From a virus: a stretch of DNA of 21,771 bases. The notes under the pieces were generated by a model. The model was not told the origin of the DNA. It saw nothing but the letters and a program-made list of their open reading frames with translations, and searched no databases. Below, piece by piece: positions 3,137-18,467 of the stretch (positions are counted from its first letter, which is position 1; every line of letters starts with the position of its first letter). The translations under genes were made by a program, and so were the position numbers. The stretch is taken from IMG/VR virus record IMGVR_UViG_3300025652_000649, positions 1 to 21,771 of that record; one strand, 5' to 3'.

Positions 3137-3354
3137 AGAAACCAATCCTTTAAGCCTACCTTTCCTTTGGTGGCTTTATAAACCTTGTAAGCATTGGAAA
3201 GTGAAGGGAGGACCCTCCCTAACTTATATAAACTTAGCGTTCTAAAGTTAATTCCGGTCCTCTTCTCCATGTCTTTCAAGGTGACATCATTAATATTAAG
3301 GTAATTTTTAAAATTCAAAGTCCGAAGCCTCGTCACCGCCTGTAGCGTTTTCAT
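3133..3354 (-). CDS. Small Cro/XRE-like helix-turn-helix protein
   Basis: Predicted DNA-binding regulator. Residues about 23-60 (VTLKDMEKRTGINFRTLSLY, then KLGRVLPSLSNAYKV) match the XRE/Cro five-helix pattern: Thr-Leu-x-x-Met, Gly at the turn, Ser-x-Tyr in the recognition helix, and PSL before the fourth helix. It starts inside the ssDNA-binding protein gene. ATG 3354 has no good ribosome binding site. A TTG at 3318, preceded by GAGG and overlapping only the SSB stop, would trim 12 residues without touching the HTH and may be the true start. It overlaps the metzincin gene by 4 nt. It could repress early genes or modulate the operon it lies in. Confidence 0.7.
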   Translation of the reverse strand: MKTLQAVTRLRTLNFKNYLNINDVTLKDMEKRTGINFRTLSLYKLGRVLPSLSNAYKVYKATKGKVGLKDWFL

Positions 3355-3916
3355 TAGTTTCTGAAACTTCTACCGCTACATCAAAAGCAGTTTCTTCAAA
3401 GTAACTATCTGAAGTAGGCGCAGTATAAAATGCTTCATCAGCTTTAATAAATTGAATCCCGTCAAAGTTAACTTTAACACCTTTCTTCCCTTGGTACTCC
3501 CAAGCAAAAAATGAGATTACTGCTCTTGCATGATCTCCGGCTTTTAAGTCTCCATCGATTAACTTTTCAAGTTTCCCGTCTGGTCCTCTATTAGATCCGT
3601 AAACTTCTGGCGGTCCAAAAGTTCCATTTCTGTCCATATTCATAACTAACATATTTCCGTCTAGAAAATCTACTTTGTTGTCATCAGCGTCTACCGCTTT
3701 AACTCCCCAACTAAACTTTTTAGATTTGATGTCCTCTTCCTTAAATTTCAATTTAGCGCACTCTAACATTCCTGCTTTAAGTGCTTTAAGGTCCTGTGAT
3801 TTATCAAAGATTAAAGCCCCTGAAAATCTGTCCTTGTCTCCGCCACTTACGAAAAGGTTTTTGATAAAAGCTAATCTACCTGTTGGACTTACCATTGTTT
3901 TTCTTTCTTCACTCAT
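3308..3916 (-). CDS. DUF2815/T7 gp2.5-like ssDNA-binding protein
   Basis: Predicted replication and recombination ssDNA-binding protein (202 aa). It has the OB-fold-like pattern of the DUF2815 family: an N-terminal SPTGRLAFIKNLFV strand, a KFSWG/GNMLVMNM middle block, and LKAGDHARAVISFFAWEY with GVKVNFDGIQFIK near the C-terminus. The last 25 residues are acidic and end SDFEF, like the tails of bacterial SSB and T7 gp2.5, which bind partner proteins through acidic residues and a terminal Phe. It has an excellent AGGAG 8 nt before ATG and lies just after the RecB-like nuclease. This grouping (DUF2800, DUF2815, polA, SF3 helicase) is a common phage replication module. Confidence 0.8.
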   Translation of the reverse strand: MSEERKTMVSPTGRLAFIKNLFVSGGDKDRFSGALIFDKSQDLKALKAGMLECAKLKFKEEDIKSKKFSWGVKAVDADDNKVDFLDGNMLVMNMDRNGTFGPPEVYGSNRGPDGKLEKLIDGDLKAGDHARAVISFFAWEYQGKKGVKVNFDGIQFIKADEAFYTAPTSDSYFEETAFDVAVEVSETNENATGGDEASDFEF

Positions 3917-3926
3917 TTTGATTCTC

Positions 3927-5138
3927 CTAGAATTCTAGCTGACTATAGTCAATAGCTACGTTAGTATCTGCGTCATCAAACATATCAGACGCGGTTTTTA
4001 TTACAATTTCTTTTCTCTTATCGCTAGTAACTGCGATAGTTGTTCCTGTATCTGGCTTCACGAAAAATGCTTCTGATTCTTTCTTACCTACTAGTTTCTC
4101 TAGGGCAATTACACCTAAAAGTTTTCTAGGTACATATAAAGCGTCCCCGAATGTATCTTCAAATTGAAGCTTGAACTCGGATTCATTTTCTACTTTCCTA
4201 TTCGACTTTCTAGCTACTAGTTTATAGCCTTCAACTTCTTCACCTTTCTGTAACTTAGAATGGGCATAACTAGCCACGGATTTAAACCAATCTGTTATTA
4301 ACTTTTCATGCTTTAAGATCTTTACTATTTGATCTCCACTCATACCTACAACTTCAGGAAGTACTGGCTTTGATTCTACTGGCATTGTATCAAATTTGTT
4401 TTGCACTAAGTCCTCCAACTCTGATTTAAGCTTAGGACAAACTGCCTTGGCTTTACACCACTTGCAATGATCCCCTGAACTTATATCTGGTTTTTTAGAG
4501 TATACTTTCTTGACTCCTGCTTTAAGTATTTTTTCATACTTGAGAAGTTCTTTAATCGATATACTCCACTCGTCATACTCTCCGCCCTCTATTCTCGGTT
4601 GGACGATAACAAGTTTAACAGTCTTAAAATCATAAATATGATCGAACTCATAGTAAGCCCCAAGCGCATATATAATCATTTGAATGTTTTCTTTAGCTAG
4701 TACATTTAATCCTGCACCATACTTGAAGTCAACAATAACCATTTCTTTATTCTCAATACCAAACGCGCAAAAGTCGTTAGATCCAAACATGTCTTTATGA
4801 ATCTTAGGCATTGAAAATCTTTGTTCTACAAACGTGTCGTAACCACTGTCTTCATTAGTGTATTTCTCCATAGCGTTTAAATAGTATTGAACAAAGGGCT
4901 TCATTTCACTTGGAACTACCTTGCCTTGGAACTCTGTAACTTCATCAGCAGTTAAATTCTGCTCTAGACAATGCTCAGATAATTCATGGGCGTAGGTCCC
5001 TTCTTCTGCGAAGCTACTTGAACTCTCTTCTATTCCGCGCGATAAAGAAACTGAAGCCGGACATCCTAGCCATCTTGAAGCTGAACTTGCTCCAATCTCA
5101 CTATGCGCTCTCTCTCCATGATCTATTACCTCTGACAT
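3927..5138 (-). CDS. DUF2800-like PD-(D/E)XK (RecB/Cas4-type) nuclease
   Basis: Predicted 403-aa exonuclease of the RecB/AddB/Cas4 fold. The N-terminus has SASRWLGCPASVSLS, whose Cys is normally the first Fe-S ligand. EEGTYAHELSEHC follows with a conserved His. The nuclease core is NDFCAFGIENKEMVIVDFKY (Asp, Asp, Lys), followed by NIQMIIYALGAYYEF. The remaining Fe-S cysteines are in HCKWCKAKAVCPKL. It would resect double-stranded ends for recombination in concert with the ssDNA-binding protein encoded just downstream. Start ATG 5138 overlaps the end of the 146-aa gene by one base. Its C-terminus, DYSQLEF, belongs to the shared tail pattern described in the findings. Confidence 0.85.
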   Translation of the reverse strand: MSEVIDHGERAHSEIGASSASRWLGCPASVSLSRGIEESSSSFAEEGTYAHELSEHCLEQNLTADEVTEFQGKVVPSEMKPFVQYYLNAMEKYTNEDSGYDTFVEQRFSMPKIHKDMFGSNDFCAFGIENKEMVIVDFKYGAGLNVLAKENIQMIIYALGAYYEFDHIYDFKTVKLVIVQPRIEGGEYDEWSISIKELLKYEKILKAGVKKVYSKKPDISSGDHCKWCKAKAVCPKLKSELEDLVQNKFDTMPVESKPVLPEVVGMSGDQIVKILKHEKLITDWFKSVASYAHSKLQKGEEVEGYKLVARKSNRKVENESEFKLQFEDTFGDALYVPRKLLGVIALEKLVGKKESEAFFVKPDTGTTIAVTSDKRKEIVIKTASDMFDDADTNVAIDYSQLEF

Positions 5139-5578
5139 TATACGGCCAACGCTTTAACAAGCTTTCCGTAAAGTTTTGCATCTACTTCAGCTAGTTTCTT
5201 TTTACCTGTAACATCGTGAAGTACTTCAACTGCCATTTCTTTAGAATCTTTAGCTTCTGCATAAGATCTCATAGCGTTTAAAACTTCTTCTTTAGTAACT
5301 ATTACTACTTCTTTTTTAACTGCGAGCTTTCTTGTTCTCTTAGTCTTCTCAGCTTCAACAACTTCAGCTACTACAACTTCTTTAACTACTTCTTTAGTTT
5401 TAACTGTAGCTTTTGCTTCTGTCTTTAAACCAAGCGCAATGGCTACTAATCTCTGAGCTTCAGCTATTGCAATGTTAGCGCAATCTCCTTCCACTAGAGC
5501 TATTTCTGCCATACTTTCTTTTTTCTCATAGTTTCCCATGTTTCTTACTTGTAAATAACTAACTTTTGATACTTGCAT
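5138..5578 (-). CDS. Lys/Glu/Val-rich phage protein with helical C-terminal domain
   Basis: Unknown 146-aa protein. The N-terminus (VSYLQVRNMGNYEKKE) resembles a short motif found near the start of many small phage replication-region proteins. The middle (residues about 55-95) is a low-complexity Lys/Glu/Val linker. The C-terminal 50 residues (EEVLNAMRSYAEAKDSKEMA, then LAEVDAKLYGKLVKAL) form a compact helical domain. Similar helical ends occur in phage proteins next to SSB or recombinase genes, which suggests an accessory role in recombination. It begins inside the SNF2 gene (20-nt overlap) and ends one base into the nuclease gene, so the three are coupled. The function is not established. 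Confidence 0.7.
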   Translation of the reverse strand: MQVSKVSYLQVRNMGNYEKKESMAEIALVEGDCANIAIAEAQRLVAIALGLKTEAKATVKTKEVVKEVVVAEVVEAEKTKRTRKLAVKKEVVIVTKEEVLNAMRSYAEAKDSKEMAVEVLHDVTGKKKLAEVDAKLYGKLVKALAV

Positions 5579-6863
5579 TTTTGTCTCCTTGAATGACTTT
5601 ATTTATATCACTTTGCTTCTCAGCAAGGTTCATACTTATTTTCTTTGCTACTGAACTCCCAAACATCTTATGAACTACACAAGATCTTGTTTGCCCTATC
5701 CTGTGAAACCTTTTAAGAAGCTGACTCATGTGAGAAGCGTCCCAAGGTTCATCATTTAAAACCATATTCCTACTTGCTGTTAAAGTTATCCCTGTACTCG
5801 CCGCTCCTACACTACATAGAATTGCGTCTAGTTCATTAGCTTGGAAAGCTTTAACATAAGCATGTCTTACTTCAACTTTAGTTCTACCTGTTATAACTGC
5901 TACTTTAAATTTCTTGTTAAGCTTCTTCTCAATAACATCAAGGGGTGCAATATGGTCAGAGAATACAATAACTGGACCCTCTCCCGATTTGATGATATCC
6001 CGAACATAATCCGCAGTAAATGAAGCGACATTTTTAGCGGAACTAGCTTTAGCCGTAATATCAAAACTTTCACCTTTAACGTGTGCTTGGTACGCCTTAT
6101 CCAATTTTTCATCATGCTTATAGCTCACTTGTACTGGCTTAAATATAAGAGGGGGTAGCGTCAATACTTTTGAAGCTAGTCTTCTTATTAGTTTATGTTT
6201 CATAAATAGCTTAAGTTCTTCTTCGTTCCTAATGCCACTATATTTTTTGACAGTTTTATAAAACGTCCCTGTCTTGCTCGTTACTTTAACCTTCATTTGG
6301 TACTCATTAGCAAAGTGTTTATTGAAGGCTTCTTGTGTCTTGAACTTATCAGTTATCAGACGTCCATTATTTTTAATAGGAGAGTAAGAACAAAGGACCA
6401 ATAGAGAATAGAAATCTGTTACTCTATTCCTAATTGGCGTCCCTGTTAATAATAGTAATCTCTCCGGTAAATACTTTCTTATCATCCTGTGTGCGTATGT
6501 TGTTCTCTGCGCATCCAAGTGAATTAGATAGTGAGCTTCATCTATAATAATCATATCGGCTTTCATGAATAACTCTGTACATTTATAGATATTTTCATAG
6601 TTAACAATATTAATCTTAGATGGTTTAAGTCCAACTGTTACACTAGTTTCATCAGTAAACTTCTCGTATTCATCTTTCCAATTAAGTTTAAGCGTAGCAG
6701 GACAAATAACTAGGCAAGTAAGATCTGAAGCTTGCTGTACAGCAATGGCTTCTAATGTCTTGCCAAGCCCTTGTTCATCAGCACAAATAGCATAGTTATG
6801 AGCTAACATAAACTGGATTGCCTTTGGTTGATGGTCCATAATTTCTATTTCGTTTCTAATCAT
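5559..6863 (-). CDS. SNF2-family DEAD/DEAH-box helicase
   Basis: Predicted ATP-dependent DNA translocase (434 aa). Motifs are in order: a Q-like start (DHQPKAIQFML), Walker A ADEQGLGKT at about residues 28-36, motif Ia CPATLKLNW, Walker B IIIDEAHYL near 107, motif III LLLTGTPIRNR near 140, motif V GAASTGITLTAS near 358 and motif VI QLLKRFHRIGQT near 386. The length is that of compact phage SNF2 proteins without the long insertions of chromatin remodellers. Phage members are thought to remodel DNA-protein complexes in replication or recombination; here it is coupled to the RecB-like nuclease and SSB. The start at 6863 lies just downstream of the tRNA-like element. The C-terminus (KNASIKS) lacks the shared Phe tail. 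Confidence 0.93.
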   Translation of the reverse strand: MIRNEIEIMDHQPKAIQFMLAHNYAICADEQGLGKTLEAIAVQQASDLTCLVICPATLKLNWKDEYEKFTDETSVTVGLKPSKINIVNYENIYKCTELFMKADMIIIDEAHYLIHLDAQRTTYAHRMIRKYLPERLLLLTGTPIRNRVTDFYSLLVLCSYSPIKNNGRLITDKFKTQEAFNKHFANEYQMKVKVTSKTGTFYKTVKKYSGIRNEEELKLFMKHKLIRRLASKVLTLPPLIFKPVQVSYKHDEKLDKAYQAHVKGESFDITAKASSAKNVASFTADYVRDIIKSGEGPVIVFSDHIAPLDVIEKKLNKKFKVAVITGRTKVEVRHAYVKAFQANELDAILCSVGAASTGITLTASRNMVLNDEPWDASHMSQLLKRFHRIGQTRSCVVHKMFGSSVAKKISMNLAEKQSDINKVIQGDKNASIKS

Positions 6864-6877
6864 TTAATTCCTAAAAG

Positions 6878-6996
6878 TGGGAGTGGACGGATTCGAACCG
6901 TAGTGGGGGTCAACGCTTCCCCTAGATAGCTCACCCTACAGGTATTCTAGGACTCTCTCTTTCCACCTTACTAGTATTTGCCGAGTACTCACTCCC
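6878..6996 (-). tRNA. Oversized tRNA-like element, identity uncertain
   Basis: On the minus strand GGGAGTG (6996-6990) pairs perfectly with CACTCCC (6885-6879), giving a 7-bp acceptor stem with discriminator A. A T-arm ACGGTTCGAATCCGT precedes the 3' strand. A D-arm-like AGTACTCGGCAAATACT follows the 5' strand and contains GG. GGGG/CCCC could form a long variable arm. However, the element is 119 nt, about 30 nt longer than a class II tRNA. Position 8 is not T, CCA is not encoded, and no canonical 5+7+5 anticodon arm is visible. The best anticodon candidate is GTA (Tyr) in CTGTAGG with a 3-bp stem, and CCTAGA/TCTAGG forms another helix. It may be a tRNA with an insertion, a decaying tRNA or a tRNA mimic. 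Confidence 0.5.
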
Positions 6997-7022
6997 ATAT
7001 TTTCTTCTATTGAAGAGTAGAG

Positions 7023-7337
7023 CTAAAAATCCATCGTGTCAAAGATTTCTTTCGGTTTATTTTCGTTTATCATAGTTTCAGTAACTTCTGACATTGTGTT
7101 ATTCCACTCTTCTGCAAGTACTGAAAGTTTAACTCTAGATACTTCAACTAAGATGAAAGCTTCTACTAAATGTTTCGGGAGATCTTCTCTAATCTTTCCT
7201 ACTTCCTCAAGCTCCATACAGCGTCCAATAGTCTTAACTATCTCTGAGCTTCTAGCTAATTGTGCCGATAATTCCTCTAAACATTCAAAGTGGTCCTTGT
7301 TCTTCATTACTTGTATTAAGTCCTGTAATTTATTCAT
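7023..7337 (-). CDS. Hypothetical helical replication-region protein (104 aa)
   Basis: Unknown 104-aa, mostly helical, acidic protein. I start it at ATG 7337 (MNKLQDLIQVMKNKD). A longer reading from further upstream would add a Lys/Arg-only stretch that is the out-of-frame shadow of the 49-aa gene. ATG 7337 overlaps the 49-aa stop as ATGAATAA, so the two are coupled. There is one Cys near residue 18 (HFECLEE) and another in GRCMELEE, and no membrane segment. The C-terminus, EIFDTMDF, has the same hydrophobic-acidic-Phe ending as the polymerase, helicase, SSB and TerS. It lies between polymerase and SNF2 helicase, suggesting a replication accessory role. Confidence 0.72.
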   Translation of the reverse strand: MNKLQDLIQVMKNKDHFECLEELSAQLARSSEIVKTIGRCMELEEVGKIREDLPKHLVEAFILVEVSRVKLSVLAEEWNNTMSEVTETMINENKPKEIFDTMDF

Positions 7338-7479
7338 CTTCGTTTTCTCCCTTATCTTCTTCTGTTTCTTCTTTGGTTTCTTTTTCTTCTTTCTTCTTGC
7401 CAAAAATCTTGTCGTAATTGCTACTGTACTTTTCCATGTCTGTATTCAAGTGTGCTGTTTCTTTAAATGAATCTCCCAT
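7330..7479 (-). CDS. Small charged protein (49 aa)
   Basis: A 49-aa ORF with a strong ribosome binding site, AGGAGAATAGTATG; the AGGAG lies in the last codons of the HNH gene just upstream. The protein starts MGDSFKETAHLNTDMEKYSS, continues NYDKIFGKKKEEK and ends in a Glu/Asp/Lys-rich tail. It is probably disordered. The stop overlaps the ATG of the next gene by 8 nt, the same coupling used elsewhere in this operon. No family is recognised. Good translation signals and tight packing support it, but the low-complexity sequence says little about function. Confidence 0.7.
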   Translation of the reverse strand: MGDSFKETAHLNTDMEKYSSNYDKIFGKKKEEKETKEETEEDKGENEDE

Positions 7480-7480
7480 A

Positions 7481-7972
7481 CTATTCTCCTATATGCTTCC
7501 AAGTTCTTCCGTTTCTTATATCCCTTATAGTTCTATCGTGTACTTTATATCGCTTTCCTATTATTACAGGAGATACTCCTTGCTTAAGGTATATTCTTAT
7601 ACTTCTAACTTGACCCTCTGTTAGTTTTCTGCCGCATTGAGGTATTCTTAATTTATTATCCAAGGCGTGTTGATTATTTTCTGAGTAGGTATTCCACTCT
7701 AAATTAGCTAATCTATTATCTGTTTTAACTCCGTTTTTGTGGTTTACTGTGGCTTTGTTTTCCGGATTGGGTATAAAAGCGATAGCTAATAGTCTGTGTA
7801 CATACAGCTTTTCTTTTTTATACCTTCCGCATAAAGTTATCATGTGGTAATTTACTTTAGTTAAGCAAGTCTTTAATATTTTTTTAGATATTTTAGAATA
7901 TATTTCTCCTTTTTCAGAGATCATATATCTACCTTCATAGCCTCTAATATTCTTAAAATTGCATAGATTCAT
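7481..7972 (-). CDS. NUMOD4-HNH homing-type endonuclease nested at the end of DNA polymerase
   Basis: Predicted 163-aa endonuclease. It has an N-terminal NUMOD4-like segment (FKNIRGYEGRYMISEKGEIY) and an HNH_3 core (VHRLLAIAFIPN, VNHKNGVKTDNRLANLEWNT). The C-terminal HTH is LTEGQVRSIRIYL followed by IIGKRYKVHDRTIRD. Domain order and motifs parallel the HNH gene at 282-824. It starts 20 nt inside the polymerase gene, and its ribosome binding site (GAGGTAGTATATG) is made of polymerase codons. Its own last codons in turn hold the ribosome binding site of the 49-aa gene. It thus fits between two genes without breaking either. HNH genes next to polymerase genes are a recurring homing pattern. Confidence 0.9.
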   Translation of the reverse strand: MNLCNFKNIRGYEGRYMISEKGEIYSKISKKILKTCLTKVNYHMITLCGRYKKEKLYVHRLLAIAFIPNPENKATVNHKNGVKTDNRLANLEWNTYSENNQHALDNKLRIPQCGRKLTEGQVRSIRIYLKQGVSPVIIGKRYKVHDRTIRDIRNGRTWKHIGE

Positions 7973-10031
7973 ATACTACCTCTTCTTTGTTAAAGTATTT
8001 CTTAAATTGTTTATACTGATCTACTCCCCGTTCATCGATATATAGGGGTTGTTGATGTACTCCCATTATTTGTTCTCCGAATTTAGTGGGGTATGAGATA
8101 TTGAAAGTATTTTCTTTTAACTCAGGACTCCATATATCTCCGTCTAATCTACAAAATGCTATTTCTTTCATTTCTTCAGGGAAGTAGAATCGGAAAGCTT
8201 CATCCATAGATGTAGCTAGTATCTTTATTTTTTCGATATTTTTGTCTACGTCCTCCATAATATAAATAGCGTCATGGAGTTGATATGATACATTTAGTCC
8301 ATAATCTTGTGCTACTCCAGTAGCTTTTCGCATTATGGCCGCTGCTAGTCCTTGCGATGGTACATTACCTACCGAACGAAAATTGGCATTGTCCCCCCAT
8401 AAATACCATCCATCGGGTAATCTTAGGTGTCTTTTAAGCTTGTAGTTCCTCTGTATACTAGCTTTCCACTTCCATAAGGTACGATAGGCTTGTTTATGTT
8501 TGTTAATCCATTTAAGGGCCATTTCAGGTGTGTGGGGTATACCTGTAGTCTCTGTTAATTGTTTAGATAGACCATATTCAGTTAGATCATACTGCTGTCC
8601 TAATATAATAGGCTTAGCCATAACTCTTTCTTTCCCATGTGATTTCTTTGTAGCGGTATTAGGTACTGCTCCGCAATCTTTAAGGAAAGCCATATATACA
8701 TCACCAGTAGCGTAAGCTTTTAGCATATTTTTATCATTACTAAGTAAAGCTGAGATTAGGTACTCCTGACTGGCCCAATCTATAGAAATCATACATTTGC
8801 CTTTGGGGGGTTCTATCATTACGCGCATCCAAGAACTTTTTAATGGGATAAATGAAGAAGCTTTGGGTTGCGATCTGCTACTTTGTGCTGTGTAAATACC
8901 TAAATACGGGCGTACCATACCGTCACTTCCGATATAATCCCATATACTTGTCTTTCCTCCGGCTGTGAATCCATTTAAGTTCTGCTTTAATTTTAAGTAT
9001 CTTATAAGCTGAGCAAAATAATGCCCTTCTGGGTATGTATGGGTAAAGTTAAAGTGTTTCGAGAAAGCCGGAAGGGATAAAGAAAGATCTTTCTTCCCTG
9101 ATTTTCCTCCATCTGTCATCATCCATTTTGTTTTAGGGTGAGTACCTAACCATTTTCGTATTTCATCTCTAATAGCGGATTGATTCATAGTGAATAGTCC
9201 TTCCTTCCTCTTAAATTTATAGAAGGGGCTATTGTCTGGAAACTGTCTTATGATATCTTGCTGACAACTGAATAGAATCTTCCCTACTTGATCCGAAAAG
9301 TTCTTAGTTTTTTCTACATTTATAGGGTAGCCTAAACTTTCAATTTTTGCAGTTCTGCATGAAAATTCTGCTCTTACTTTCATGTCAGCAATTAACTGTT
9401 TTATATCGAATTGCCTTCCAAGTAGTCTTTTATATTCTGTAAGCATGGCTTGAAACATAGGCCATAGGTATTCGGTATCATCAGCACAATATTGTAAGAT
9501 CTCTTCTTGTTCTGCTTTAGTAAATTCAACTGGATTAGATATGATTAGCTTTCTCATATTCTCTTTGAATACAGTATCTATCTGTACATTTAAGAGTTTA
9601 AAGCAAGCTGCCGCTAAATTGTATCTAGGTTTCTCATTATCAGACTTCTTCTTCTCTTCTTCAGTCTGTTCCCACTTATTAACAGGTGGCTTGGTAGTTT
9701 TTACTCTACCGTCCATATACTGCCTACCATATTGTAACTTATGATTATGGTTTAATAGTTGGCGATATTCTAAGTAATTATCTACCCATTTATATTTGAG
9801 TGGTTCAAGATTTAAAGCTAGGAATACGCGAGCTTCTGCTGTGGCCGCGTAGGATATAAAAACGTAACCCTGCCTATGCAATTCATTTATCTTATTTACT
9901 ACTGGGGTTCTATCCGAGTTATGTACCCAATATTTAAATACATCGTCTGCCGTCCTTATGACAATACAGACTAAGTTTAGCTTGGGTTCCTTAGATTGGT
10001 TATACTCTGCGTCTATTGAGGCGTACTTCAT
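7953..10031 (-). CDS. Family A DNA polymerase with 3'-5' exonuclease domain
   Basis: Predicted replicative DNA polymerase (692 aa). The N-terminal exonuclease has Exo I YASIDAEYN (Asp7, Glu9), an atypical Exo II ISYAATAEARVF with Glu in place of the usual Asp, and Exo III ILQYCADDTEYL near residue 182. Polymerase motif A is MISIDWASQEYLI near 415 and motif B RVMAKPIILGQQYDLTEYG near 473. Motif C is SYQLHDAIYI near 586, where the usual His-Asp-Glu reads His-Asp-Ala. The catalytic Asp residues are kept. It has a good AAGGA ribosome binding site 7 nt before ATG. The C-terminus, EVVYESMQF, carries the shared Phe tail, and the same bases encode the start region of the HNH gene. No RNA primer-synthesis domain is present; priming probably comes from the SF3 protein or the host. 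Confidence 0.95.
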   Translation of the reverse strand: MKYASIDAEYNQSKEPKLNLVCIVIRTADDVFKYWVHNSDRTPVVNKINELHRQGYVFISYAATAEARVFLALNLEPLKYKWVDNYLEYRQLLNHNHKLQYGRQYMDGRVKTTKPPVNKWEQTEEEKKKSDNEKPRYNLAAACFKLLNVQIDTVFKENMRKLIISNPVEFTKAEQEEILQYCADDTEYLWPMFQAMLTEYKRLLGRQFDIKQLIADMKVRAEFSCRTAKIESLGYPINVEKTKNFSDQVGKILFSCQQDIIRQFPDNSPFYKFKRKEGLFTMNQSAIRDEIRKWLGTHPKTKWMMTDGGKSGKKDLSLSLPAFSKHFNFTHTYPEGHYFAQLIRYLKLKQNLNGFTAGGKTSIWDYIGSDGMVRPYLGIYTAQSSRSQPKASSFIPLKSSWMRVMIEPPKGKCMISIDWASQEYLISALLSNDKNMLKAYATGDVYMAFLKDCGAVPNTATKKSHGKERVMAKPIILGQQYDLTEYGLSKQLTETTGIPHTPEMALKWINKHKQAYRTLWKWKASIQRNYKLKRHLRLPDGWYLWGDNANFRSVGNVPSQGLAAAIMRKATGVAQDYGLNVSYQLHDAIYIMEDVDKNIEKIKILATSMDEAFRFYFPEEMKEIAFCRLDGDIWSPELKENTFNISYPTKFGEQIMGVHQQPLYIDERGVDQYKQFKKYFNKEEVVYESMQF

Positions 10032-10279: not shown

Positions 10280-11872
10280 TTAAAACTCCATATTGGTTGT
10301 ATCTATTTTTGTGTCTACTTCTACTGCTTTACTTTCTATTTCATACTTCTTGGAAGGTATTATAACTCTTTCTGATCCCTTCCTTACTACATAACCGTAG
10401 TCCTCTCCATGTTCATCCTTGTGGACGTCTAGGAAGTTCTGGCAATTAGTATATCCTTGGCTTTTCCCTTTATACATTAATTCAGGGTTTCCAGTGATAG
10501 GTATGTCCTCGCACTCTCCTGAAGCTAAGCTACTTACTATATATCGTTGCCAAGGCAGTAATGCTTTCTCTACTATCTCGTAAAATAGTGAAGTTTTATA
10601 AGGTTGTTCTCTTCTGAACTCTTTCGTGAATCCATTTTGTAGAATCCAATGCCCTAAATTCGAGTAAAATTCCTTATGTTCTTCAGGTTTTCTTATTATG
10701 GAATAAAGTTCATCCATCTTATCTTCCCCTATCCCTGCTGTCAGAGTTTTAGTGGTCAATACTGGAACTGCAAACCTTCTTGATTCATAAACTAAATGGT
10801 TAATAGTTTCTAAGTTGTTACTTATTATTGAAGAGGCATAATTTACTTCATTCCCTTCAATAGTTAAGTTCTTCCCATGATATGTCATCCTTGGGTCGTA
10901 TAGTTGTTTGAAGTCATCTAAGTTCTGCTTGGTGTAAATTCCATGTTCATCAAAATAGAGAAGTCTTCTATGTCTAAGTTCACTATTGAAGTTATTATCC
11001 CAAAAACCTTTGGGTACTAGATAGTAATTTGAGTCTCCTACTAGATTAGAGAAGATCTCAACTAATGTATTTTTACCTATCCCATGATGTCCATGTAGTA
11101 ATAAATGAACTGGACTTCTACTTGTGAGCATATTGTATGCCCAAAACATTACATATTGCCTACATTTCTTGTCTGGGAACAAGTGATTCATTAGATCTTT
11201 GAATAGTTCAGGCATTTTCGGACGCGCATTTTCGGACTTTCTCCATAATGGTGAGTTATGAGAATTGATACTTGTTATCTCCTGGCCATCACTTAATTCG
11301 ATTATCTTAGATCCGCCCGATGTTGTGGGGTCGAAATCTATTTGAGCAGAGGTGAATTTACCATGTAGTAGTTTCTTATCTTCAGCAGATTGCTTCTTTT
11401 CCCATATTTCATAAGCTTTATAACTTGCTTCGTGTATTACTGTCTTATCTTCAATATTAAACATTATCGTTTGGGCGGTCCTATAATCGATTATAGGGAT
11501 TAGAGGAGAGTAGTCCATTTCTTCAATACCTCTACTAGCGATATCGTTTGCTTTCCTCTTCATCTTATCTTTAGTTAGTTTATTGAGAAGTGTATTAAAT
11601 ACGAATAAACCCATACTGCTTTTAATATCTTTCTCTTCTTCTACATTATACTTATCTGAGATGTAGTTTTCTACTAAGAAGAAGTTCGTTCTCCCGAGCT
11701 TATCCTTCAAAGGCTTGTAGTTGGTCACTAAGAGTCTGCAAAAGGTCGCAGAGGTGTAATTATCCCCTCGTAAGGCTATGCTACTAATTGACTTACCCTC
11801 GGATAGTCCTTGGTTAGCGTAAAAATCTAATAATTGTTGGATTGCTTGTTTCTGTTTCTGTTCTTCAGTCAT
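10280..11872 (-). CDS. SF3-type phage primase-helicase (D5/DUF5906-like)
   Basis: Predicted superfamily 3 replicative helicase (530 aa), probably hexameric. Walker A is LHGHHGIGKNTLVEIF near residue 260, Walker B RRLLYFDEHG near 303, motif C (sensor) YASSIISNN near 345, and the arginine-finger region is YESRRFAVPVL near 362. This is the arrangement of the D5-like/DUF5906 C-terminal domain of phage primase-helicases. The first 240 residues show no classical primase catalytic triad that I can identify, so a primase function is only inferred from relatives. The ribosome binding site AAGGA lies 7 nt before ATG. The C-terminus, KIDTTNMEF, shares the Phe-ended tail with polymerase and SSB. In T7, comparable tails on gp4 and gp2.5 dock the polymerase. 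Confidence 0.88.
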   Translation of the reverse strand: MTEEQKQKQAIQQLLDFYANQGLSEGKSISSIALRGDNYTSATFCRLLVTNYKPLKDKLGRTNFFLVENYISDKYNVEEEKDIKSSMGLFVFNTLLNKLTKDKMKRKANDIASRGIEEMDYSPLIPIIDYRTAQTIMFNIEDKTVIHEASYKAYEIWEKKQSAEDKKLLHGKFTSAQIDFDPTTSGGSKIIELSDGQEITSINSHNSPLWRKSENARPKMPELFKDLMNHLFPDKKCRQYVMFWAYNMLTSRSPVHLLLHGHHGIGKNTLVEIFSNLVGDSNYYLVPKGFWDNNFNSELRHRRLLYFDEHGIYTKQNLDDFKQLYDPRMTYHGKNLTIEGNEVNYASSIISNNLETINHLVYESRRFAVPVLTTKTLTAGIGEDKMDELYSIIRKPEEHKEFYSNLGHWILQNGFTKEFRREQPYKTSLFYEIVEKALLPWQRYIVSSLASGECEDIPITGNPELMYKGKSQGYTNCQNFLDVHKDEHGEDYGYVVRKGSERVIIPSKKYEIESKAVEVDTKIDTTNMEF

Positions 11873-12164: not shown

Positions 12165-12166
12165 GT

Positions 12167-13377: not shown

Positions 13378-13563
13378 TAGTTGTTCTCCTTCGTTGAACG
13401 ATTGATTTTAGACGTGCATTTTTAGATATTTGCCCACCTGTTCTAAATGTATGTTTATTTATTTCTCGATTTTTGAAAATATTTTTGATTTTTTTGAATT
13501 TGTTTTTCGTAGTTAGTAGTAGCATGTATTTGCATCAAACCGTTTTAATGATATCTTGTAAAC
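13378..13563. promoter_or_regulatory. Divergent intergenic region with phased T-tracts
   Basis: This 186-nt region separates minus-strand lysis-like genes from the plus-strand HNH gene and must hold promoters for both. From 13470 to 13507 it contains T-tracts starting at about 13470, 13482, 13489 and 13503, spaced roughly one helical turn, which would bend DNA or serve as an UP-like element. No clear sigma70 pair was found. A 71-codon minus frame crossing it lacks a ribosome binding site and was not called. Confidence 0.4.
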
Positions 13564-13935
13564 ATGCGGTGCGACTTAGTATGTAATATTGACAAAAAAG
13601 ACTTAACACAGATTAGAACAGGACTAAGACAGGCGTTTATTAGATCCAAGTATAAGGGCGCGTTCTTACGCTCCAAGCGTATTGAGATAGACCACTTTAA
13701 GAAGTGCGGTGGTTTGGCCAAACGTCCCCACGTCCGTTATAAGTGTGTTAAATGCACTGATTTATTTAAGGTTGATGAAATTAATGTAGATCATATTGAA
13801 AAAGTAGGGAGTTTTAAGGATATTTTAGAAGTTGATAGTTTCTTTTTTAGGATATTTTGTGAGTTCTCTAATTTGCAGATACTTTGTAAAAAATGCCACG
13901 CGCTCAAAACTAAGTATGAGAGAGCTACGTTCTGA
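13564..13935 (+). CDS. HNH endonuclease with CxxC zinc knuckles
   Basis: Predicted 123-aa nuclease. The HNH core is RYKCVKCTDLF (CxxC), VDEINVDHIEKVG (the Asp-His pair), then NLQILCKKCHALKT (CxxCH). Together these form a zinc-stabilised beta-beta-alpha-metal site. The N-terminal 50 residues are basic and probably bind DNA. It differs from the two NUMOD4-type HNH genes in this window and is more like general phage HNH proteins, some of which help packaging or resolve DNA. It is the only plus-strand gene between two minus-strand groups. The start has no strong ribosome binding site (TTGTAAACATG). A hairpin surrounds its stop codon. It could be a homing gene or a working endonuclease. Confidence 0.85.
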   Translation: MRCDLVCNIDKKDLTQIRTGLRQAFIRSKYKGAFLRSKRIEIDHFKKCGGLAKRPHVRYKCVKCTDLFKVDEINVDHIEKVGSFKDILEVDSFFFRIFCEFSNLQILCKKCHALKTKYERATF

Positions 13936-13947
13936 AAAACGAACGTA
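13926..13947. terminator. Hairpin around the HNH stop codon, weak terminator candidate
   Basis: TACGTTC (13926-13932) and GAACGTA (13941-13947) form a perfect 7-bp stem with an 8-nt loop containing the TGA stop. There is no T-run on either side, so it is not a classical intrinsic terminator. It sits between convergent genes and might act in both directions or stabilise the mRNA end. Confidence 0.35.
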
Positions 13948-13968
13948 ACCCCCATGACGCGTGAACTT

Positions 13969-14187
13969 CTAAGATCTTGAACTATTAAATTCTCTAATCA
14001 TTCTTTTTTCGTCCAATTTGTCCTGTTTATTCATTCTAGTATAATACTCTTCTCTTATTTCGCTTAACTCATTACTAAAATCAGTGCCATTCTCGTTTAC
14101 GTAGTAGGGAGCTGAATCCAGAACAAATTGTAATTTTGACGTGTTCCAAGACTTAAATTTAGAGTAGTATTTTTGAGGTTTATTCAT
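13969..14187 (-). CDS. Hypothetical protein (72 aa)
   Basis: Unknown 72-aa charged protein starting MNKPQKYYSKFKSWNTSKLQ, with helical, Arg/Glu-rich C-terminal segments (SEIREEYYTRMNKQDKLDEK). It has no membrane segment. ATG follows the stop of the 108-aa gene after one base, with no strong ribosome binding site of its own, so it depends on coupling. It is the last gene of this minus-strand group, convergent with the HNH gene. Confidence 0.65.
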   Translation of the reverse strand: MNKPQKYYSKFKSWNTSKLQFVLDSAPYYVNENGTDFSNELSEIREEYYTRMNKQDKLDEKRMIREFNSSRS

Positions 14188-14188
14188 G

Positions 14189-14515
14189 TTACCAACTTAG
14201 ACAGTAGTGAGTTCCGTCAGTTTCTTCCCATTGAAAGAGTGAATCTTCTTTATAATTGGTATCTGAGTAACTACTTGCTTCATCTGGTGAGATGATTTCA
14301 GCGTTAATAGCGTAATTATCAGCTAGGTTTGAAACGTCAATAAGGTCTGAAGTATTGACGCCGATATTACTTAATAGTTGGGCCATAGACTCTTTTTCGT
14401 TTGTAGTCATAGAATGATTAAAGTTTTTAGCGCGCACCTCAATACGATCTACTAAGTCCGTAGCTTGATCGATGTTTAAAAAGTTTACTTGGTGGTCTTC
14501 ATTATTGTTATACAT
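14189..14515 (-). CDS. Hypothetical acidic protein (108 aa)
   Basis: Unknown 108-aa acidic protein. It starts MYNNNEDHQVNFLNIDQATD, has helical stretches (RIEVRAKNFNHSM, KESMAQLLSNIG) and ends SLFQWEETDGTHYCLSW. It has a good ribosome binding site (AAAGGATACAAAATG). Upstream on the same strand is an intrinsic terminator, so its expression needs read-through or a promoter overlapping the 27 nt after the terminator. No family is recognised. Confidence 0.68.
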   Translation of the reverse strand: MYNNNEDHQVNFLNIDQATDLVDRIEVRAKNFNHSMTTNEKESMAQLLSNIGVNTSDLIDVSNLADNYAINAEIISPDEASSYSDTNYKEDSLFQWEETDGTHYCLSW

Positions 14516-14541
14516 TTTGTATCCTTTGGTTAGTTGGTGTT

Positions 14542-14569
14542 AAAAAAGGGAGAGCTATTAACTCTCCCC
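14542..14569 (-). terminator. Rho-independent terminator
   Basis: On the minus strand GGGAGAG (14568-14562) pairs with CTCTCCC (14554-14548) across a 7-nt loop and is followed by six T. It is a textbook intrinsic terminator just after the exported 86-aa protein gene. Confidence 0.9.
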
Positions 14570-14600
14570 AAGTACTCTTTGTTTCTGCTACTACTGCTCT

Positions 14601-14861
14601 CTATGACTTAGTTTTTTCTAGTAATGACTCGTATCTCTTTTTGGCATTTGCTAGTTTCATAGCGTCAACCTCTGATTTACTCAGTGCTTTTTTAGTCACT
14701 GTGCATTTAGTGCTTAAAGCCTCTTGAATTTTAGCTGATACACTTACGCCATTAATGTAAGCGGTCTTAGCTCCCTCTTTTTTTACATCGAGCTCAATTG
14801 TACAAGCTGAGTAAGATACTGTTGAAAGTGTAAGTAGTGCAATCGTGATTAATTTTTTCAT
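14601..14861 (-). CDS. Small exported protein (86 aa)
   Basis: Predicted secreted protein. MKKLITIALLTLSTVSYS is a typical Sec signal peptide, with cleavage probably after Ser18 just before ACTIELD. The Cys at +2 is not in a good lipobox. The mature part (about 68 aa) has two Cys, a strand-rich start and a Lys/Glu-rich helix at the end (DAMKLANAKKRYESLLEK). I use ATG 14861: it has AAAGGA 8 nt upstream and begins the signal peptide, whereas a start further upstream would bury it. Leader and start match those of the neighbouring exported 73-aa gene. It may act in the periplasm, for example against superinfection; this is inference. Confidence 0.75.
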   Translation of the reverse strand: MKKLITIALLTLSTVSYSACTIELDVKKEGAKTAYINGVSVSAKIQEALSTKCTVTKKALSKSEVDAMKLANAKKRYESLLEKTKS

Positions 14862-14980
14862 AGTAGTAGTCCTTTCAGGAATGACTTTAGTCATGTTCCC
14901 TTGGTTATGAGTCATTATTGACTCTGTTTATTATTTATATCATGTTAAGCGTTAAATTCAATATAGGGTGTAATAGTTAC

Positions 14981-15202
14981 CTAGTAGTCAGTTTCACATT
15001 CAGCTTGCATCTCAAGGATATCTCTCTCTTCTTCTTCTTCATGCTGAATTAAAACTTCTTCTTTACAGTCATTGATATCCTCTTGAGTAACGATATAAAC
15101 TGAGGCGTTAAAACCTGCTGAATCAAATTCACCTGTGTCTGCTGAATCAAAGGCTTGTGCTGAAGTTGATAAGATAAGTAGTAATAAGATTAAGTGTTTC
15201 AT
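14981..15202 (-). CDS. Small exported acidic protein (73 aa)
   Basis: Predicted secreted protein. MKHLILLLLILSTSAQA is a clean signal peptide with an AQA cleavage site. The mature part, about 56 aa, is strongly acidic (FDSADTGEFDSAG, later EEEEERDILEMQAE) with two Cys (NDCKEE, AECETD) that could form a disulfide. The ribosome binding site region AGGAACTACTACTATG is nearly the same as that of the 86-aa exported gene downstream. It is the first gene of the minus-strand group, right at the divergent promoter region, so it is likely expressed early. The role is unknown. Confidence 0.75.
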   Translation of the reverse strand: MKHLILLLLILSTSAQAFDSADTGEFDSAGFNASVYIVTQEDINDCKEEVLIQHEEEEERDILEMQAECETDY

Positions 15203-15387
15203 AGTAGTAGTTCCTCGTTAAGTGTTTTTAGTTGATAAGATAGTTATACAGGAAAATAAAAATAAATATATAGTAGTTGTAATATTTACAGCGTATGGCG
15301 TTAGATTGGTACTACTTGCAGTACTAATAAATAGGCGTTAAATTAAAAGTATTAGTATATATAGACAGGAATTAAGGGCTATTTAGT
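15203..15387. promoter_or_regulatory. Divergent promoter/operator region
   Basis: This 185-nt AT-rich region lies between divergently read genes. It holds an inverted repeat, GTACT/AGTAC (15309-15324), suited to a small dimeric regulator. Two copies of GGCGTTA(A/G)ATT lie at 15297 and 15334; GCGTTAAATT recurs at 14949. A -10-like TATATA at 15358 lies 17 nt after the second copy, so the repeat may occupy a -35 position for the plus-strand gene at 15388. None of this is proven beyond the sequence pattern. Confidence 0.45.
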
Positions 15388-15726
15388 ATGGACAATAAGT
15401 TGGAGACGATTAGAAATAAGGATTTACAGTCAGTTAAGAAAATCAGACGCGCATTTAGCAGGGCGAATAGTTTAGCTCTGAGTGTACTGGTTGAAGTAAT
15501 AAGTCGAGGTAATAGAGGGAATAGTGGTGGGTTAACAGAAAAACAGGCATGCTTACTACTCAACATAAACTATAAATTATTCAGATACTGGCTAGATAGT
15601 GGAGATCCAATAGCTACTAATAGAGTTAAGCATCAACTAGGTAGAGCAAGGGACTATAGATCTACTATTAAGAGAGAGAAGACTATAAGATCTATTAGTA
15701 GGACAGTGAGTAGACTAATAGAATGA
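15388..15726 (+). CDS. Small basic HTH-like protein (112 aa)
   Basis: Unknown 112-aa basic protein, the first plus-strand gene before the packaging block. The middle (GGLTEKQACLLLNINYKLFR then YWLDSGDPIA) reads like a MerR/Xis or terminase-type winged helix: a turn after the second helix, an aromatic residue in the recognition helix and an Arg/Lys-rich end. The N- and C-termini are Arg/Lys-rich helices (KSVKKIRRAF-like and TIRSISRTVSRLIE). It probably binds DNA, as a late regulator or a site-specific packaging partner. The ribosome binding site is weak (AAGGG about 11 nt upstream). Confidence 0.65.
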   Translation: MDNKLETIRNKDLQSVKKIRRAFSRANSLALSVLVEVISRGNRGNSGGLTEKQACLLLNINYKLFRYWLDSGDPIATNRVKHQLGRARDYRSTIKREKTIRSISRTVSRLIE

Positions 15727-15841
15727 GAAGAGAGAGGTCGTAAGTATAGGTAATCATAGATGTTTGTAGGGGGTAGCCTTGTAATATTAATAGCTTAGAA
15801 GGGGGGTGGGGGGCAAAGTTCGCGGTCTGTTTGATGGAGTG

Positions 15842-15880
15842 CCGACCCTCGCACAAACTTTTCAGATTTTTCCATTTTAG
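15842..15880. repeat. 39-bp tandem direct repeat, copy 1
   Basis: Starts CCGACCCTCGCACAAAC and ends TTCCATTTTAG. It is identical to 15885-15923, with a 4-nt spacer TCAA, so the period is 43 bp (about four helical turns). Confidence 0.95.
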
Positions 15881-15884
15881 TCAA

Positions 15885-15923
15885 CCGACCCTCGCACAAA
15901 CTTTTCAGATTTTTCCATTTTAG
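15885..15923. repeat. 39-bp tandem direct repeat, copy 2
   Basis: Identical to 15842-15880. It lies 111 nt before the terS start. Two copies on one face of the helix would suit binding by an oligomeric protein such as TerS. Confidence 0.95.
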
Positions 15924-15996
15924 CTACCTCCCTAATGATTCTAAGCAGTTATCCCACGTAAGTCACCTAAAACTCTACAAGCCCTTTCTAGCCCAC

Positions 15997-16026
15997 TTGC
16001 TTTTCCCTGTAAGTTTGGTTTATAGT
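15997..16026 (+). promoter_or_regulatory. Candidate late promoter, possibly leaderless terS transcript
   Basis: TATAGT (16021-16026) matches the sigma70 -10 at 5 of 6 positions. TTGCTT lies 18 nt upstream as a weak -35. Transcription would start at about 16033-16034, on the ATG of terS, which has no ribosome binding site. Confidence is limited by the poor -35. Confidence 0.35.
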
Positions 16027-16033
16027 TATCTGT

Positions 16034-16513
16034 ATGACACAAGTTACTAAAGTAGATAAGAAATTAGAAGAGAACGCCATTGATATATTGGATATGATAG
16101 CAGGTGGCGCAGACGAGAAAGCAGTTTGCGATCATTTCCATATAAGACGGGGTACGTTCGTTCAGTGGATGATTAAGTATCCGCCCTTTGAGTCAGCAGT
16201 AATTGAAGCTAGAAAGCAAAGAGCAGATAGTTTTCGCTCTATAATCCAGAATAGACTTTATGATGACAACGGCGACTTCATTACTTTGAACAAGGATGAT
16301 GTCCCAGGAGAGAAGTTAATCTTCGATAAGTTGAAATGGCTAGCGGAAGTGGATAATCCGGAGAAGTACGGGACTAAAGTTAAGCACGAAGGCGGTAGCA
16401 TTATGCCAGTTCAGATCGTAGTTGACACAGGAATAAAGAACAAAGAAGATAAAGCAATAGAAACTGAATCCACCGAAGTACCCGAAGAAGGCTACAAGGA
16501 TATGGATTTTTAA
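16034..16513 (+). CDS. terS: Terminase small subunit
   Basis: Predicted DNA-recognition subunit of the packaging motor (159 aa). The N-terminal HTH is DILDMIAGGADEKAVCDHF followed by IRRGTFVQWMIKYPPFE, of the type seen in TerS proteins. The middle is a helical oligomerisation region (ESAVIEARKQRADSFRSI). KWLAEVDNPEKYGTKVKHEG is the typical end of many phage TerS cores. The C-terminal tail is acidic and ends EEGYKDMDF, the shared Phe ending. No ribosome binding site precedes the ATG. It lies directly upstream of the packaging block and downstream of the tandem repeat it might bind. Confidence 0.85.
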   Translation: MTQVTKVDKKLEENAIDILDMIAGGADEKAVCDHFHIRRGTFVQWMIKYPPFESAVIEARKQRADSFRSIIQNRLYDDNGDFITLNKDDVPGEKLIFDKLKWLAEVDNPEKYGTKVKHEGGSIMPVQIVVDTGIKNKEDKAIETESTEVPEEGYKDMDF

Positions 16514-16527
16514 CAAAGAGAGGAAGT

Positions 16528-17025
16528 ATGAGTGACGCAATCGGAAAAGCATTAGGTAAGAGAGTATTGATGGAAGATGGGACTTGGATCTCAGTTAAGT
16601 CATTACCGAAAGACGTTCAAGATGAAATGTCTAATAACTCTAAGATAGCTGATGCACAAAGAAGAGACAAAGCATTAGCTAATAGTACTGACTTCAATAA
16701 GAAGAAAGACAATAAGATTGAAGCTGCTTTAAGAGCTGAGAACAATGAACTTAAAGATATGGTTAGAGCGCAAGGTGAGATGTTAGCAACTATTAATGCT
16801 AAGATGGAACTTGGGGCGGCTGTCGCTAAACCTGCTAGAATGGCTACCGGGGCTGAGCTTAAAACTGCTACCCCGAAGCCTAGAAAGCCAACTAAGAAAG
16901 AAAGCCTACAAGCACAATGTGAAGATAAAGGTCTTGAGTTTGAAGACTCTAATACTATCGCTGAATTAGAAGAATTGATTACAGAAGCGGAATTAGACGA
17001 GTTTGACCAAGCCGCAGAAGCTTAG
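16528..17025 (+). CDS. Hypothetical protein between terS and terL (165 aa)
   Basis: Unknown 165-aa protein. The N-terminus starts MSDAIGKALGKRVLMEDGTW. The middle is a charged coiled coil (KIEAALRAENNELKDMVRAQ), followed by an Ala/Pro/Lys linker (ATPKPRKPTKKESLQ). The C-terminus (QAQCEDKGLEFEDSNTIAEL then EELITEAE) resembles a SAP/HeH-like helix-extended-helix. It has a strong GAGGAAGT ribosome binding site. It may assist terminase or head assembly, which is inferred from position. Confidence 0.72.
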   Translation: MSDAIGKALGKRVLMEDGTWISVKSLPKDVQDEMSNNSKIADAQRRDKALANSTDFNKKKDNKIEAALRAENNELKDMVRAQGEMLATINAKMELGAAVAKPARMATGAELKTATPKPRKPTKKESLQAQCEDKGLEFEDSNTIAELEELITEAELDEFDQAAEA

Positions 17026-17027
17026 TA

Positions 17028-18467
17028 GTGCCTGATTGGTTAGGGAAGTATTCTAAAGATAAAGATATTATGTCCGAAGGACCTACTGTCGTTGGCATGG
17101 AACTTCCCTACAATCGGGAACTTAAGAAAGAGATTAAGAGAGTTGAGACAGGCTATTGCCCTAGACCGCTCCAAGCACTAATACATGCAAGCCTGAAGAG
17201 ATTCAATGTACTTGTATGTCACCGCCGTTTCGGTAAAACTATCCTATTGATAAATGAAACTATTAATAGGGGGTTAAAGAATCAACTACATAATCCACAA
17301 TATGCCTATGTCGCGCCTACCTACAAACAGGCAAAGATGATAGCATGGGAATATATTGTTGATTACACATCTTCGTTACCCGGAGTTAAAGTCAATAAGT
17401 CAGAACTATCAGTAGAGATACTGAGAGAAGGGACTAAAGATGCCAATGGTGCATGGCTCAAAAAGCCAGATAAAATTAAGTTTATGCTCCTTGGGGCTGA
17501 CAATCCCGATTCACTTAGAGGGATATATTTGGACGGGGCGGGTCTTGACGAATTCGCTCAATGCGACCCTATCATCTGGGGAGAGATTATACGTCCGGCA
17601 CTTGCTGATAGGAAGGGATGGGCAATATTTATTGGAACTCCCAAAGGACAGAATCACTTTTATAATAGATTAAAGAAAGCAGAGACACAGCCTGAGAACT
17701 GGTTCACAGCGATATATAAAGCTAGTGAAACTGGTGTTTTGCCTACAGAGGAACTTGAGGATATGATGTCCGATATGGAGCCTGAAGAGATCGAACAGGA
17801 ATTGGAGTGTTCGTTCCATGCGGCAGTTAGAGGATCTTACTACGGGGACGCCCTTCGAGAAATTGAAGAGAACGGGCAAATCCGAAGAGTCTTCCATAAC
17901 CCTAAATATCCGGTAGATACGCATTGGGATATAGGTATTGGGGATTCAACAGCGATTGTATTTAGACAAAAGATTAACGATACTTGGCATTACATTGACT
18001 ATTTGGAAGCAAACGGTAAAGGTGTTGAGTGGTATATAGATGAATTAGAAAAGAAGCCCTATGTTTATGGCCGCCATGTATGGCCACATGATGGGAAGAA
18101 TAAGGATTTCATAACTGGTCAATCAAGAGTTGAAGTAGTTAGAGAGTTGAAGCCGGGCTGGGAATGGCATATCCTAACCAAGCAAGGTCTAGACGATGGG
18201 ATCCAAGCAGCAAGAAGAAGATTAAAAACTTCTGTCTTTGACTCAGTAAAGTGTGTTAGACTCTTAGACTGTTTAAAGAATTACCAACGAGAATGGGATT
18301 CTAAGCTTATGTTATTCAGAGACAAGCCCAAACATGACTGGGCCTCTCATGGTGCTGATGCCTATAGATACGATGCCTTAGATGAAATAGACTCTAGGGA
18401 ATTGAAGAAAAGGCGAGATAGTTTGCCAAGAATGGCTGATAGCGACTATAATGAACTTGAGTACTAA
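17028..18467 (+). CDS. terL: Terminase large subunit
   Basis: Predicted ATPase-nuclease of the packaging motor (479 aa). The ATPase has Walker A CHRRFGKT (residues 64-71), an adenine or coupling region (YVAPTYKQAKMIAWEY) and Walker B with catalytic carboxylates YLDGAGLDEF (168-176). Motif III follows in FIGTPKGQNHFY. The RNase H-like nuclease has HWDIGIGDSTAIVF (Asp301 first acidic residue) and DWASHGADAYRY near 437 (last Asp). I use the GTG at 17028, two bases after the upstream stop; an ATG at codon 15 is the alternative. The C-terminus DSDYNELEY is a Tyr version of the tail ending TerS and the replication proteins. Confidence 0.95.
   Translation: MPDWLGKYSKDKDIMSEGPTVVGMELPYNRELKKEIKRVETGYCPRPLQALIHASLKRFNVLVCHRRFGKTILLINETINRGLKNQLHNPQYAYVAPTYKQAKMIAWEYIVDYTSSLPGVKVNKSELSVEILREGTKDANGAWLKKPDKIKFMLLGADNPDSLRGIYLDGAGLDEFAQCDPIIWGEIIRPALADRKGWAIFIGTPKGQNHFYNRLKKAETQPENWFTAIYKASETGVLPTEELEDMMSDMEPEEIEQELECSFHAAVRGSYYGDALREIEENGQIRRVFHNPKYPVDTHWDIGIGDSTAIVFRQKINDTWHYIDYLEANGKGVEWYIDELEKKPYVYGRHVWPHDGKNKDFITGQSRVEVVRELKPGWEWHILTKQGLDDGIQAARRRLKTSVFDSVKCVRLLDCLKNYQREWDSKLMLFRDKPKHDWASHGADAYRYDALDEIDSRELKKRRDSLPRMADSDYNELEY

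Follow-up and report, generated by a model that had tools for sequence, protein, structure and literature searches.

A genome-specific C-terminal tail shared by replication proteins and the small terminase of a phage and its relatives, with a candidate reader

Genes of the window and their C-termini

This study concerns a short C-terminal tail shared by unrelated DNA-metabolism proteins of a phage, which are encoded on a 21,771-base fragment of its genome (IMG/VR record IMGVR_UViG_3300025652_000649, positions 1 to 21,771; hereafter the window). The minus strand carries a replication block of SSB, a DUF2800 nuclease, a protein called p146, an SNF2 helicase, p126, a family A polymerase and an SF3-type helicase, and the plus strand carries the small terminase (TerS), the large terminase (TerL) and the portal. 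An earlier note on this DNA, made without database searches, had proposed that seven of these proteins end in one docking peptide. All seven C-termini are present in the sequence as it quoted them, and its family assignments agree with Pfam and PHROG profiles. The genes concerned are as follows.

3308-3916, minus strand: SSB (Enc34/DUF2815, gp2.5-like; PF10991, 1.7e-8; phrog_112); C-terminus ASDFEF, tail SDFEF coded at 3311-3325
3927-5138, minus strand: DUF2800 PD-(D/E)XK exonuclease (PF10926, 5.5e-90; phrog_69, exonuclease); C-terminus YSQLEF, tail SQLEF coded at 3930-3944
5138-5578, minus strand: p146, candidate tail reader or adaptor; itself untailed, ends KALAV
5559-6863, minus strand: SNF2 helicase (PF00176); no tail, ends NASIKS
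7023-7403, minus strand: p126 (104 aa from an internal ATG), with a lysine-rich N-terminus; C-terminus FDTMDF, tail DTMDF coded at 7026-7040
7953-10031, minus strand: family A DNA polymerase (PF00476, 1.6e-11; phrog_17); C-terminus YESMQF, tail ESMQF coded at 7956-7970
10280-11872, minus strand: SF3-type helicase/primase-like protein (phrog_1156, a phage primase/helicase profile, 2.7e-18); C-terminus TTNMEF, tail TNMEF coded at 10283-10297
16034-16513, plus strand: TerS, Sf6-like (PF20901, 3.2e-11; phrog_1482); C-terminus YKDMDF, tail KDMDF coded at 16496-16510
17028-18467, plus strand: TerL; C-terminus YNELEY, outside the covarying set

Six proteins, namely SSB, the DUF2800 nuclease, p126, the polymerase, the SF3-type helicase and TerS, share the ending [MLF][DEQ]F. 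The SNF2 helicase, the portal (AASNQQ) and the HNH proteins (KHIGE, GYVL and RATF) are untailed, as the note had stated. In the polymerase, the tail sits past the conserved core, which stops near KKYF. The protein described in the note as 104 aa long has the C-terminus given there; that length applies from the internal ATG, and positions 7023-7403 encode 126 aa. Searches of Pfam and PHROG matched no family to p126, a homologue of which ends FEDMEF in the related contig G058; a 75-aa protein in a similar position in contig G033 ends DDMEF.

Chance and DNA-level origin of the tails

Direct computation showed that the tails are present, exceed chance, covary within genomes, are under selection at the protein level and are associated with the p146/p220 family. 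The expression [MLF][DEQ][FYW]$ matched none of 796 open reading frames (ORFs) in contigs without shared tails, and at the upper-bound background rate the probability of six matches among the 33 called ORFs of the window is about 4e-12. Among 1,532 ORFs there were nine further matches, most of them to TerL or to tagged proteins of relatives. The frequency of such endings, by which the note had suggested that its proposal could be refuted, is thus far above background. Tail codons and stops vary (for example CAG CTA GAA TTC TAG and AAT ATG GAG TTT TAA), and leucine in the tails is coded by TTG, TTA, CTA, CTG or CTC. The use of different codons for one tail argues for selection at the protein level, and the synonymous codon and stop differences rule out a DNA-level repeat near gene ends. 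Chance, composition bias or such a repeat might be suspected given that the tails are short and of low complexity; but the empty background, the differing codons and the permutation test described below already refute these explanations, to which we assign a negligible probability.

Covariation of tails in related contigs

Relatives were found with a polymerase-alignment scan, which gave 33 loci, the contigs of 28 of which were taken whole or nearly whole; scans with the single polymerase and SF3 sequences found none. Gene calls were ORF-based, most contigs are incomplete and the number of genomes is modest. In contigs G004 and G006, the TerL of which is 72-80% identical to that of the window, the equivalent proteins end in DLL-type tails: PIDLL on TerS, FTDLL on SF3, AVDLL on a RecE-type nuclease and KTHLL on the polymerase of G004, and SSDLL, GVDLL and YLDLL on TerS, nuclease and polymerase of G006. 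The TerS orthologues of G004, G006 and G018 end IDLL or SDLL. Further genome-specific tails are LEF/LTF/LVF (G033), MDF/MEF/MGF/FGF (G058), YNI/LDI/FNI (G037), LDI/DEI/TDI/DDI (G060), DLL/DIL (G034 and G043), DGL/DVL/DFL (G038) and DYL/DAL (G042). Orthologues in relatives do therefore have different C-termini, which the note had also named as a possible refutation, but the other tails in those genomes change together with them.

Similarity was scored with BLOSUM62 over the three C-terminal residues of polymerase, SF3, nuclease, SSB and TerS, with genomes shuffled within each family. The within-genome mean was 5.70 (103 pairs, 14 contigs) compared with 1.05 (standard deviation 0.53) after shuffling; none of 4000 permutations reached the within-genome mean, and the similarity was weaker five residues upstream and gone by 8-12 residues. 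When each of ten deep lineages was represented by a single contig, the mean was 5.59 compared with 1.27 (standard deviation 0.64; 0 of 10000). Two candidates were rejected as members of the set. The SNF2 helicase showed no significant tail similarity to the others (p = 0.057). The ending of TerL does not covary, since [EL][ED]Y persists in genomes with DLL on their other proteins (NELEY in G004 and G018, DELDY in G006), which indicates that it is a feature of the TerL family; the claim of seven tailed proteins thus holds for six and fails for TerL.

The polymerase carries the tail of its genome in all 14 tail-bearing contigs, and the SSB tail of the window covaries with the genome. The nuclease family varies by contig (RecE/DUF3799-like or DUF2800) and SSB comes from two sequence families (the Enc34 type, or the p145 type, which is named SSB from its position and acidic tail only); orthologous polymerase, SF3 and TerS proteins bear the same tail as the local nuclease and SSB. 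To judge from these sequences, the tail follows the genome and not the protein family. Some relatives also carry it on a cytosine methyltransferase-like protein (YEDIF in G035), HNH-family proteins (MDYL in G042, GDLL in G043), helix-turn-helix (HTH) regulators (SDML in G043, IDAL in G038) and small uncharacterised proteins. Across genomes, nearly all tail matches are DNA-metabolism proteins, with morphogenesis and lysis proteins essentially absent, although these lists use motifs taken from the tails themselves and are descriptive, the evidence being provided by the permutation tests. The common docking peptide predicted by the note is in agreement with tails that covary within genomes over different folds, TerS included, and a shared docking tail under protein-level selection is, in our assessment, very probable.

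Terminal hydrophobic residues can act as degrons, and the tails might accordingly be stability tags that protect from host proteases or deliver to them, or else acidic mimics of single-stranded DNA that shield DNA-binding sites. The tails of SSB, SF3 and TerS are acidic, and removal of the SSB tail of phage Enc34 alters binding to double-stranded DNA (PMC5686142). However, charge alone leaves unexplained the agreement of the last three residues across unrelated folds and their joint change between genomes, and structural and lysis proteins are without tails, which makes this explanation very unlikely.

Among more distant phages, no shared tails were seen in the Silvanigrella phage CP017838, a distant relative by its polymerase, or in Vibrio LP.1, although DUF2800 and SSB are present in the latter. 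The Silvanigrella locus (L066, CP017838.1) has a duplicated terminase region at 21111-24358 and 30344-33420 together with a run of N; the duplication is probably an assembly artefact.

Association of the p146/p220 family with the tails

The gene family that tracks the tails, that of p146 (5138-5578; p220 or p239 in relatives), was absent from the earlier note. All 14 tail-bearing related contigs have it and none of the 16 tail-less ones does, and tail coherence does not overlap between contigs with the family (at least 0.50) and those without it (at most 0.17). Three or more changes of the label are seen on the polymerase tree, which was made by a quick method, one of them between the well-supported sisters G006, which has both family and tails, and G052, which has neither. 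The SNF2 helicase is found in tail-bearing and tail-less relatives alike. Blind finds bore the association out: L166, found by the p146 family alone, has EFDL, EFNL and FDFDL on polymerase, SF3 and SSB, with a nuclease ending TNID; in L171, tails of the DLL type are found on TerS, SF3, polymerase, nuclease and a small protein; and L172 has neither p220 nor tails. L168 has the N-domain of p146 only and no evident shared tails. HNH and HTH families (10 and 8 tail-bearing genomes, respectively, and no tail-less ones) are likewise limited to tail-bearing genomes, but less completely. No other gene tracks the tails as well as p146/p220, which is therefore the leading candidate for their reader, an assignment that we hold tentatively, at a little under an even chance.

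AlphaFold2 predicts for p146 a bba domain (residues 1-50) and a helical C-domain (93-146), both with pLDDT of about 90, joined by a basic linker (54-90) that is disordered, and the same domain plan is predicted for a type A relative. Neither p146 nor its family has a significant sequence match in Pfam, PHROG or PDB, and p146 and a type A p220 have no significant PDB fold match. Genomes with a type A C-domain have RecE-type nucleases and tails that are mostly DxL; those with a type B C-domain have DUF2800 and tails of the F, I or FxL kind. By profile, the p146 C-domain matches bbp35 of phage BPP-1 and a TolA-like protein of RDJL. Cultured phages encode, beside DUF2800 or close to it, a protein whose C-domain is type B-like; the match is strong for RDJL and BPP-1, and weak in some phages of Firmicutes, in which decoys of reversed sequence reach equal scores.

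Shared tails in cultured phages

Shared tails are also present in cultured phages. In Salmonella phage Chi they end the primase (DDEDEV), the p146-like gp4 (GEEDDV), the exonuclease (DDDDEV), SSB (DWEDEV) and TerS (VDDDEV), and in Enc34 the primase (DEDEV), ORF3 (EEEEV), the exonuclease (DDDEV), SSB (DEDEV) and TerS (DDDEV); the polymerase (YRKD), TerL and helicase of these two phages do not match. Aeromonas phage AVP3 has DEEL on the primase-polymerase, SSB and TerS, EEDL on the p146-like protein, DEDL on DUF2800 and EEEL on SNF2, and BPP-1 has EDLV on the nuclease, ADLV on SSB, AGLV on TerS and ADLI on a methyltransferase. Cronobacter phage JC01 is a partial case, with DDDF on SSB and the p146-like protein and VEDF on the helicase. 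Since these acidic tails are of low complexity, a single match carries less weight than concordance among five or six proteins. Chi, Enc34 and AVP3 (Casjensviridae) and BPP-1 resemble the window in their DUF2800-DUF2815 module, in a protein with a p146-type C-domain and in tails on nuclease, SSB and TerS, and in Casjensviridae also on the primase. They differ from it in an untailed polymerase, in a coil-like N-terminus of the p146-like protein in place of the bba domain and, in Casjensviridae, in a p146-like protein that is tailed. The author of the earlier note knew of no phage in which terminase shares the replication tail, but at the sequence level Chi, Enc34, AVP3 and BPP-1 do so on TerS. 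No published description of shared tails was found in the literature, including the papers found on these cultured phages.

In Roseobacter phage RDJL Phi 1 (L173), the protein with the p146-type C-domain is annotated as TolA, and an annotated integrase and a 111-aa protein both end FPDDL; its nuclease and SSB do not.

Known docking tails and candidate readers

The closest mechanism, by analogy, is that of the clamp-binding tails of T4 and RB69, in which the C-termini of gp43, gp55 and gp33 dock on the sliding clamp gp45 and the gp17 terminase is linked via gp55 (PMC2988020, PMC9026906). As in the window, unrelated DNA proteins have highly similar hydrophobic and acidic C-termini and packaging is tied in; in T4 and RB69 the tails are interchangeable and serve one hub. 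Unlike in T4, SSB, nuclease, helicase and TerS are tagged directly, the tail varies between genomes and no clamp was found. A phage sliding clamp was rejected as the hub, with no match to PF00712 or PF02916 in any of 15 tail-bearing records, several of which, the window included, are incomplete.

A host protein such as the sliding clamp, an SSB-tail binder or another part of the replisome might therefore read the tails, which would then differ with the hosts. In bacteria, the acidic tail of SSB is a protein-docking ligand, docking on host clamps is known among phages, and the tails are, in their general hydrophobic-acidic make-up, similar to host ligands. Some relatives may have Bacteroidota hosts: L170 (JAFMCI010000016.1), a contig of a Bacteroidia metagenome-assembled genome (MAG), matches the G004 phage across the replication block and L171 lies in a Flavobacteriaceae MAG, a hint only, as the binning of phage contigs is unreliable. 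However, the pockets of bacterial clamps and those for SSB tails show strong conservation, whereas the tails range over MDF, DLL, DEV and FNI, and tail presence tracks the phage gene p146/p220 over 30 contigs. The tails listed have no consistent Gln five residues before the final Phe or Leu, as in the host beta-clamp motif QLxLF, and no [IL]PF ending, with the Pro of the bacterial SSB tail (SSB-Ct, DDDIPF), occurs among them. The SSB-Ct is similarly an acidic, hydrophobic free C-terminus that serves as docking ligand (PMC9917605), but there one tailed protein meets many pockets, whereas the window has many tailed proteins. We consider a host reader unlikely.

The tails could also form a mesh like that of T7, docking on phage enzymes (a polymerase patch, the SNF2 helicase or an SSB cleft) without a dedicated adaptor. 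T7 resembles the window in an SSB and a helicase that share an acidic tail with a terminal aromatic residue, the DF end being found only on gp2.5 (DGDF) and gp4/gp4A (DTDF), and the SSB of the window is gp2.5-like; the gp2.5 tail has been implicated in contacts with the polymerase and the primase-helicase (PMC5686142). The SNF2 helicase is always present and untailed in most genomes, and the untailed polymerase of Chi, Enc34 and BPP-1 could be a reader. Unlike in T7, where the gp5 polymerase, gp6 exonuclease and gp18 TerS are untailed, polymerase, nuclease and TerS of the window are tailed; the untailed polymerase as dock is thus not found in the window (ESMQF), nor in any of the tail-bearing contigs counted above. 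SNF2 and polymerase are equally present in tail-less contigs, so that neither explains the presence or absence of tails, and this arrangement also appears improbable.

We propose instead that the last three to five residues, an acidic stretch followed by hydrophobics at a free C-terminus, act as a short linear docking peptide, which the phage would place on TerS and on SSB, polymerase, helicase and the nuclease that processes DNA ends; relatives would add it to an HNH nuclease, an HTH regulator or a methyltransferase. A single partner would read it; because tails match within a genome while orthologues differ between genomes, the ligands appear to have co-evolved with that partner. As adaptor, p146/p220 may lie on DNA with its long basic linker, next to the small bba domain (a coil in the cultured phages), and bind the tail with its helical C-domain, thereby holding replication enzymes and TerS together at phage DNA, and it could hand concatemers to packaging. 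Both the ligand role of the tail and the reader role of p146/p220 are inferred. This reading as a whole, with tails shared within and differing between genomes as ligands for one partner and p146/p220 as the adaptor, is the one we lean towards, at slightly better than even. The wider idea that a clamp-free phage adaptor (p146/p220) reads a genome-specific tag common to replication, end resection and packaging initiation, that tag and reader co-evolve, and that the system is widespread, including Chi, Enc34 and BPP-1, we regard as possible but somewhat less than an even bet.

Several observations weigh against the proposal. The docking role and the reader are derived from sequence and predicted structure, and no PDB fold match backs a peptide-binding fold for p146. 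The polymerase is untailed in Chi, Enc34 and BPP-1, and TerS lacks the tail in G033, G037, G058 and G060. G059 combines tails of the DFF/NFF/DLF kind with a Lys-rich protein in the syntenic position, for which no homology to p220 could be demonstrated. Moreover, p146/p220 is itself tailed in four cultured phages (Chi, Enc34, AVP3 and JC01) and in about half of the type A genomes, which is odd for a pure reader; in these it may be another ligand, self-associating, or a linked member of the module. Finally, p220 shares a module with nuclease and SSB, and its association with the tails could be by linkage.

If the proposal is correct, the tail provides a sequence-readable list of the phage proteins in one replication and packaging complex, including proteins without assigned function, and a lead on how terminase locates phage DNA under replication, which is a long-standing question. 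A small protein that is widespread but unannotated, encoded beside DUF2800 nucleases, would also gain a suggested role, and the idea is directly testable in cultured phages.

Other genes of the window

The HNH endonuclease at 13564-13935 (plus strand, phrog_1985) belongs to a family found in 10 of 17 tail-bearing contigs and in none of the 18 tail-less ones, its relatives bear the tail of their genome in G042, G043 and possibly G039, and it may be a packaging-linked HNH protein. The Cro-like HTH regulator at 3133-3354 (minus strand) has family members in 8 tail-bearing and 0 tail-less contigs, and its relatives in G043 and G038 carry the shared tail. Two homing-endonuclease-type HNH proteins are encoded on the minus strand at 282-824 and 7481-7972, the latter overlapping the end of the polymerase gene, and their relatives occupy other places in the G004 replication block. 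The conserved protein at 2579-3145 (minus strand) has an HExxH-like motif (IAHEGLHNQG) and is a possible metalloprotease; it adjoins the conserved protein p184 (2025-2579), and both have relatives in G004 and G006.

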